DNA of 64,000 bases from Gemmatimonadales bacterium (lineage in GTDB: Bacteria; Gemmatimonadota; Gemmatimonadetes; Gemmatimonadales; GWC2-71-9), in contig DASYCE010000011.1 of NCBI GenBank assembly GCA_036500345.1, positions 62,001 through 126,000 on the forward strand. The letters are read 5' to 3'. The position numbers and the translations under genes were made by a program. Below the pieces are notes generated by a model. The model did no database searches, had not been told where the DNA came from, and saw nothing but the letters and a program-made list of their open reading frames with translations. This document shows positions 13,880 through 15,033 of the stretch, in pieces (position 1 is the stretch's first letter; each line of letters opens with the position of its first letter).

Positions 13880-14281
13880 TCACTCTCGCCCCACCAGATC
13901 CGGCCGCAGCGCCGCGGCACCGCGCAGATACACCGGCCGCACCGGCCCGCTCCAGCATCGCTCCGCATGCACCAGGATCCTGAGGCATCGCGGCAGCGCC
14001 CCTGGCACCGCGATCTCCGTGGCACAGAGGAGCGGCACTCCTTCCCACCCCGCGAATCGTGCCGTCGTCGCCGGAAACGCGGCGTTGAGATCGGGCGTCA
14101 TGGTGAACACGGCACTGATCATCTGCTCCGGTCCGATCCCGTTCGCCGCCTGAAGTTCGTGAATCAATTCGGCGACGGCCGCGGCAATCGCCGTCTCGCA
14201 ATTCTCCTCGACCGTGATCGCACCGCGGATCGCCCGGACCGACGGCACCCGCAGCCATCGGCGTAACCATCGATCGATCAT
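13880..14281 (-). CDS. aroH: chorismate mutase, AroH class
   Basis: 133 residues, the trimeric pseudo-alpha/beta-barrel type of chorismate mutase (chorismate to prephenate). Residues matching the Bacillus subtilis active site are present: Arg19 in RAIRGA, the TPDLNAAFPA stretch, Glu89 in ATEI, Arg101 in CLRIL, Tyr118 in PVYL, and the C-terminal AALRPDL. Its ATG (14281) overlaps the stop of the prephenate dehydratase gene as ATGA, so the two are co-translated. Mutase plus dehydratase gives phenylpyruvate, the precursor of Phe. The N-terminus is about 12 residues longer than in B. subtilis, with an Arg/Trp-rich start. Confidence 0.95.
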   Translation of the reverse strand: MIDRWLRRWLRVPSVRAIRGAITVEENCETAIAAAVAELIHELQAANGIGPEQMISAVFTMTPDLNAAFPATTARFAGWEGVPLLCATEIAVPGALPRCLRILVHAERCWSGPVRPVYLRGAAALRPDLVGRE

Positions 14282-14829
14282 CTCGCGGCGCCCGGTGCGA
14301 TGACCACGAACGCGGTCCGATTGTCTCGCGCATCGGCGATATCGCGATAGAGGACCTCGAGACCGTGATGCTCCGCGGCGCGTTCGCTCGCCACCGCCGC
14401 TCGCGTGTAGTTTCGATCGAGACTGATCCGGCGCGCCGATTCGGCGGTGTCGTCGGCCACTTTCGGCGTGAGCCGATGCGTCGCGAGAAAGCCGACGCAT
14501 TGCTTGAGCGCTTCCGGATGGCTCTCGACACTCCGGATTGTGCGGACGGCGGTCCCCGGGAGCGCCAGCAGGCAGAGGCAGATCGGGAATTCGAATCGGT
14601 CGACCTCCTCGAGATCGGTTGCCGAATGGAGCGCTGCCCGGCTCGTCTCGATCTCGCCGATGGTGGAGTTCCAGACGGGCACCAGTCCCAGGTCGGCTTT
14701 CCCGCTTCGCACCGCGCGAACGACTCCGTCGAAATCGGCGAATCCTGTCGCCCTGGCGCCGGCAATCCTCGACTCCGCGGCGAGTTGACTGAACGCACCG
14801 ACACTTCCCTGATATGCGACCTTCGGCAC
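14278..14829 (-). CDS. pheA: prephenate dehydratase, catalytic domain only (no ACT)
   Basis: 183 residues. It converts prephenate to phenylpyruvate. Family motifs: VAYQGSVGAFSQ at the start, VPVWNSTIGEI (about 50-60; usually VPIENS), SHPEAL (103-108) and DNRTAF (169-174). The essential Thr of the TRF motif is kept (Thr172), but the Arg is Ala. There is no C-terminal ACT domain, so feedback inhibition by Phe as in the classic enzymes is not expected. The start is GTG 14829 with a GGGGAAGGGG ribosome site about 6 bases upstream; the ATG inside that stretch is out of frame and runs into a stop. A leader peptide and terminator lie just upstream. Confidence 0.92.
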   Translation of the reverse strand: MPKVAYQGSVGAFSQLAAESRIAGARATGFADFDGVVRAVRSGKADLGLVPVWNSTIGEIETSRAALHSATDLEEVDRFEFPICLCLLALPGTAVRTIRSVESHPEALKQCVGFLATHRLTPKVADDTAESARRISLDRNYTRAAVASERAAEHHGLEVLYRDIADARDNRTAFVVIAPGAAR

Positions 14830-14855: not shown

Positions 14856-14892
14856 CAAAACAAAACGGCCCTCTCGTCAGTGAGAGGGCCGT
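14856..14892 (-). terminator. intrinsic terminator in the pheA leader (probable attenuator)
   Basis: On the minus strand the arm ACGGCCCTCTC (14892-14882) pairs perfectly with GAGAGGGCCGT (14875-14865) around a 6-base loop and runs into TTTTGTTTTG. It lies 31 bases after the leader-peptide stop and 26 bases before the GTG of the dehydratase gene, so it would stop transcription before the operon. A competing 7-bp pairing of GGGAGGG (14945-14939) with CCCTCTC (14888-14882, one G-U pair) could act as antiterminator. The hairpin is seen directly; the regulatory role is inferred. Confidence 0.85.
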
Positions 14893-14923
14893 CGGCTGGT
14901 GCGGACTGCTGTGAGTGTCCGTG

Positions 14924-14998
14924 CTAGCGCCGAGCTCCCCCTCCCATGACGGGATAGAGGCGATAGCTAAATGCGAAATAGCGCACGGCAGTCATCAT
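14924..14998 (-). CDS. 24-codon Phe/Tyr-rich leader peptide of the pheA-aroH operon
   Basis: The short ORF opens with two ATG codons (14998 and 14995) and ends with TAG at 14926-14924. Residues 7-15 read YFAFSYRLY: three Tyr and two Phe in nine codons, followed by PVMGGGARR. An intrinsic terminator and the Phe-pathway genes follow. This is the arrangement of amino-acid attenuation leaders such as E. coli pheL: stalling at the aromatic codons would leave 14945-14939 free to block the terminator. The predicted transcript start falls on or next to the first ATG, so the leader may be translated from a leaderless mRNA. No ribosome site is present. Confidence 0.7.
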   Translation of the reverse strand: MMTAVRYFAFSYRLYPVMGGGARR

Positions 14999-15003
14999 GA
15001 CAT

Positions 15004-15033
15004 ACGATAGCAGGAGACGGGAAACCGCGTCAA
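15004..15033 (-). promoter_or_regulatory. sigma-70-type promoter of the pheA leader
   Basis: On the minus strand TTGACG (15033-15028) and TATCGT (15009-15004) are separated by 18 bases. They match the -35 and -10 consensus in five and four of six positions. A start about seven bases downstream would be near 14997, at the first ATG of the leader peptide. Confidence 0.6.

Follow-up and report, generated by a model that had tools for sequence, protein, structure and literature searches.

A 24-codon open reading frame (ORF) with phenylalanine and tyrosine codons, an intrinsic terminator just behind it and a pairing that competes with this terminator lie upstream of the genes for prephenate dehydratase (PDT) and an AroH-type chorismate mutase in the 64 kb stretch of DNA analysed here (the window), and together they constitute, in all probability, a ribosome-mediated transcription attenuator of pheA-aroH. 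Such a switch would most likely let the bacterium make the enzymes of the phenylalanine pathway only when Phe or Tyr runs short. Very likely, it is an attenuator of the classical kind that is widespread in its phylum, probably the Gemmatimonadota, a phylum from which no earlier report of one has been found in the open-licence literature. Judged from sequence, the leader, the terminator, the competing pairing and the promoter geometry are conserved; from these we infer translation of the leader, ribosome stalling, termination and read-through.

Architecture of the leader region

The leader ORF, MMTAVRYFAFSYRLYPVMGGGARR, extends on the minus strand from the ATG at 14998 to the TAG at 14924 (14924–14998), and 5 of its 24 codons encode Phe or Tyr (two Phe and three Tyr); counterparts of it are present among the 47 leaders described below. 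The perfect 11-bp hairpin of the initial annotation takes shape as an intrinsic terminator of 12 bp at 14893–14864 (minus strand), built of 11 Watson–Crick pairs and one G-U around a loop of 6 and followed by the U-rich tract TTGTTTTG. It was recovered by a terminator scan as well as by covariation and, at the stricter setting, is the sole intrinsic terminator on both strands of the window. Region 3 (14881–14893, minus strand), as delimited by pairing and covariation, serves both as the 5′ arm of the terminator and as the 3′ strand of the putative antiterminator, whose 5′ strand is region 2, TGGGAGGG (14939–14946, minus strand). The 7-bp pairing of 14945–14939 with 14888–14882 that had been predicted to overlap the terminator arm does so, and extends to 8 bp through 14946:14881. 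By itself, this 8-bp pairing in the window does not exceed chance expectation (500 shuffles, p = 0.15); its support comes from the relatives, in which it is clear, with compensatory changes among six same-genus sequences. Region 2 would in turn be sequestered by a predicted protector hairpin (1:2), CCTCTATCCC-GTCAT-GGGAGGGGG (14937–14960, minus strand; read from the sequence and the fold), into which the last Tyr codon extends. The five same-genus relatives fold a comparable hairpin (GGCC..CTC/GAG..GGCC), which was not traced in the leaders of the DAHP synthase (DAHPS) fusion type.

Behind the terminator, a Shine–Dalgarno-like sequence, GGGGAAGGGG (14845–14836, minus strand), precedes pheA (14278–14829, minus strand), which starts with GTG and encodes a PDT domain only (PF00800, E 1.6e-42), with no ACT domain matched in the domain search. 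The gene for the AroH-type chorismate mutase (13880–14281, minus strand; PF07736, E 1.9e-40) overlaps pheA by 4 nt (ATGA), and both enzymes named in the initial annotation are borne out by their Pfam matches. Within the named collection, a Gemmatimonas sp. MAG is the closest relative by PDT (38% identity), which points to Gemmatimonadota as the probable phylum of the window. In a relative from another family (L010:1498-2424), PDT and AroH-type chorismate mutase are fused into one protein of 308 aa, where the window has two overlapping genes.

The promoter proposed for the leader was found by consensus scan at its expected place on the minus strand, with a −35 element TTGACG (15028–15033) and a −10 element TATCGT (15004–15009) separated by a spacer of 18 nt and matching the consensus at 9 of 12 positions. 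Because the −10 element lies only 5 nt ahead of the leader ATG, transcription would start at or near this codon, and we infer that the mRNA is leaderless, its 5′ end lying on the ATG or no more than one or two bases away. The relatives present the same picture: most have a TTGAC element upstream of the leader, and a promoter scoring at least 8/12 is present in 30 of 35 leaders, ending a median of 6 nt before the ATG, a score that only 0.9% of shuffled sequences reach. That a leaderless start would be unusual for the organism of the window was considered and rejected: its genome matches the pattern TTGAC-17/19-TAnnnT-4/8-ATG 14 times, as against once for the reversed control, and 11 of the 12 other sites lead into ORFs of at least 65 codons. 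Many of the genes with this leaderless pattern (L086–L099) resemble, by eye, small HTH regulators of the ArsR/PadR-like kind.

The placement of this promoter also bears on a simpler reading, in which the hairpin is merely the terminator of the upstream gene (15471–15073), the short ORF is there by chance and pheA is transcribed from a promoter of its own further downstream. Terminators are common between genes, and the leader frame does stay open further upstream, as an ORF of 95 aa to 15211. The promoter, however, is located between the upstream gene and the leader ORF, the consensus scan found no promoter-like site between the terminator and pheA, and ORF, codons, pairing and terminator recur jointly in dozens of genomes but never in 2500 shuffles, which leaves this reading with very little credit.

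In the attenuation model, the ribosome would translate the 24-codon leader behind RNA polymerase, on a transcript whose start coincides, to within one or two bases, with the ATG. When charged tRNA-Phe, and probably tRNA-Tyr too, is plentiful, the ribosome would reach the stop codon and cover the end of region 2, allowing the terminator to form and transcription to end before pheA. With Phe or Tyr in short supply, it would stall at the F/Y codons between codons 7 and 15 and open the protector hairpin, whereupon the freed region 2 (14946–14939) would pair with the terminator 5′ arm (14888–14881) and the polymerase would read through into pheA-aroH. Competing RNA folds, a check suggested at the outset, agree with this scheme in the window: in the transcript before synthesis of the 3′ arm, the predicted pairing of region 3 with the leader is 0.61–0.78 with the ribosome stalled at any of the five F/Y codons, as against 0.17 with the ribosome at the stop codon. 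In most relatives, by contrast, a crude equilibrium fold with a ribosome footprint does not separate the stalled from the stop-codon ribosome, and in the ribosome-free transcript of the window, region 3 also pairs with the leader (0.70). Kinetics or the protector hairpin must therefore account in part for the off-state.

Conservation within the genus and across the phylum

Of ten genomes of the genus, six have both PDT and AroH and the other four (G001, G002, G007 and G009) have neither; two of these four are 98–99% complete, and the four may possibly be Phe auxotrophs or use an unrecognised route. Each of the six PDT-carrying genomes has an aromatic leader and a terminator, together with a segment complementary to the arm of the latter, and in the alignment across relatives that had been recommended, the aromatic codons are kept and both helices covary. 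With the helix segments aligned by register with neutral anchors, a register that favours the structure, the terminator helix is 95.5% paired in the six sequences, with double changes at 4 pairs and a covariation score reached by 2 of 500 shuffles. For the antiterminator helix, pairing amounts to 89.4%, double changes affect 3 pairs and the score is matched by 9 of 500 shuffles. Slid versions of the helices score much worse in the same six sequences. MAFFT alignments of whole leaders, or of unanchored short helix pieces, contained too many gaps for use. Two genomes have A-U-A at one position across regions 2, 3 and 4 where the other four have G-C-G, a joint change that is what mutually exclusive helices would demand. 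Moreover, genus-type ORFs pair better with their own terminator arms (26.8) than with the arms of other types (18.0).

Beyond the genus, 26 of 125 regions upstream of PDT pass an automatic test that calls for a short ORF, at least four aromatic residues in ten and a terminator just behind, compared with none of 2500 dinucleotide shuffles. When regions upstream of DAHPS-PDT operons are included, the collection amounts to 47 aromatic-rich leaders with terminators ahead of PDT genes or operons, phylum-wide; where PDT lies behind a DAHP synthase gene, it is the latter that the leader precedes. Many PDT upstream regions of the phylum have no leader detectable by the scans used. In nearly all collected leaders, the segment just 3′ of the aromatic codons pairs with the terminator 5′ arm, and, counted from the first base of the final aromatic codon, region 2 mostly starts 7–15 nt downstream, so that most of it would be left free by a ribosome stalled on the aromatic run. 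The leader types differ from one another in the sequences of region 2 and the terminator, each fitting its own partner: GAGGGGGCCG with CGGCCCCCTC in the genus type, CCGGCGCGGC with GCCCCGCCGG in the PDT-ACT-DAHPS fusion type, ACGGGCCGT with GGCGGCCCGT in the PDT-ACT type, and GGGGGCCC with GGGCCTCC in the PDT-AroH fusion type.

The conserved features weigh against the idea that a protein- or ligand-binding leader uses the terminator and that the ORF is incidental. T-box, riboswitch and TRAP-like leaders do control aromatic genes in other phyla, but what is conserved here is the aromatic codons and a fixed distance from codon to pairing, and a match in Rfam is absent even at loose thresholds, no family reaching the gathering score and the best loose matches being unrelated; such a leader is thus highly improbable. 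The weight of the evidence rests instead with attenuation of the pheL/trpL kind, as first proposed, given the conserved leader and the covarying terminator and antiterminator.

Elsewhere in the genome of the window, no other attenuators were seen before two trpE-like genes, one ilvB-like gene and two DAHP synthases, and HisG (PF01634) was not found in this assembly (G000, 96% complete). A separate observation comes from another genome (G157), in which a leaderless-looking short ORF, MHSHTHPLRTRFSGVVPAPAGEVWP, with three His codons near its start and a terminator behind it, lies upstream of PDT-ACT (L201/L167); this His-codon ORF thus precedes a Phe gene.

Amino acids sensed and the ACT domain

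The attenuator of the window probably senses Phe and perhaps Tyr. Both Phe and Tyr derive from prephenate, the product of AroH, and a Tyr signal therefore makes sense for operons that contain AroH. Tyr codons occur in all 15 leaders of AroH-containing operons, at 1–5 each (mean 2.5), whereas their mean is 0.8 in the 32 leaders of other operons; the contrast is significant by Mann–Whitney test (p = 7e-5; p = 0.005 for genus means, with genera not fully independent), the operon groups being assigned from BLAST matches in short loci, one or two of which end at contig ends. The excess favours gating by Phe plus Tyr, which the initial annotation had inferred, and this part of it is plausible, a ribosome stalled at any of the five codons also leaving the antiterminator free in the crude fold.

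It is nevertheless quite possible, if somewhat short of an even chance, that Phe alone is sensed by a plain pheL-like attenuator, with the Tyr codons as passengers that are interchangeable with Phe or dictated by RNA pairing. Phe codons outnumber Tyr codons in 5 of the 6 genus leaders, and the last aromatic codon lies within a strand of the protector hairpin in five relatives, where pairing may dictate its bases. In addition, the Phe-Tyr-Phe leader aroR of Corynebacterium glutamicum is reported to respond to Phe and not to Tyr (PMC11802643). This account has to contend with the distribution of Tyr codons between AroH and other operons, and with the window leader itself, in which Tyr codons outnumber Phe codons by three to two. 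A broader proposal, which we put forward only tentatively, is that an ancestral leaderless aromatic attenuator governs the PDT operon throughout the phylum, with its codon mix tuned to the products of the operon. If true, leaders would respond mainly to Phe with PDT-ACT only, to Phe and Tyr with the shared enzyme AroH, and often to Trp too with DAHP synthase, such that a single attenuator design would sense one, two or three amino acids through codon replacement. Leaders for one, two and three amino acids would then form a natural series in which to test the logic of multi-codon sensing.

The initial annotation had further held that attenuation makes up for the missing ACT domain, the allosteric Phe-binding domain, of the PDT in the window. 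ACT is indeed absent from all six genus PDTs, and all six have a leader. As a rule, however, the proposal fails, because PDT-ACT and PDT-ACT-DAHPS proteins are also found behind attenuators, and because the PDTs of G250, G209, G156, G051, G217 and G203, judged to be ACT-less by BLAST with one reference, have no leader found within about 4 kb; compensation for ACT is accordingly an unlikely purpose of the attenuator. The PDT-ACT-DAHPS fusions behind an aromatic attenuator, of about 570 aa (L023:1498-3216, L100, L076, L085, L077, L082 and others; assigned by Pfam for L023 and by BLAST for the rest), bring the initial step and late steps of aromatic biosynthesis together within one chain.

Relation to known attenuators

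In 2005, Phe attenuators were reported as not seen in Actinobacteria (PMC1262725), and as of 2010 Proteobacteria and Actinobacteria were given as the only groups with known leader-peptide attenuators, to which Firmicutes were then added (PMC2965389). In the open-licence literature, no earlier report of leader-peptide attenuators in Gemmatimonadota was found. The occurrence of attenuation across several families of this phylum, on apparently leaderless mRNA, would widen the known reach of the mechanism.

The closest known counterpart in design is pheL-pheA of Escherichia coli and other gamma-proteobacteria, with which the window shares a Phe-rich leader peptide, competing antiterminator and terminator, and prephenate dehydratase downstream. 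It differs in its presumably leaderless mRNA, in having Tyr besides Phe codons, and in a PDT that is fused neither to chorismate mutase nor to ACT and is followed by a separate AroH-type mutase. The leader of the window would thus work like pheL, while homology to pheL is unsupported, in that it matches no described leader family in Rfam. aroR-aroF of C. glutamicum (Neshat 2014, cited in PMC11802643) resembles it in having Phe and Tyr codons in the leader, and DAHP synthase is under a leader of this kind in many relatives of the window; aroR-aroF belongs to a different phylum, the genes in the window differ, and aroR is reported as responsive to Phe but not to Tyr. Finally, a leaderless mRNA, considered at first to be unusual for attenuators, is suggested by the placement of the promoter, but its rarity was overstated: a leaderless trpL attenuator, whose RNA or peptide acts in trans, has been published in Sinorhizobium meliloti (PMC7298713), as have leaderless trpL, leuL and ilvL attenuators in Streptomyces lividans (PMC8079986). 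In these systems, as would be the case in the window, the attenuator transcript begins at the leader AUG, and they serve other amino acids and other genes than those of the window.
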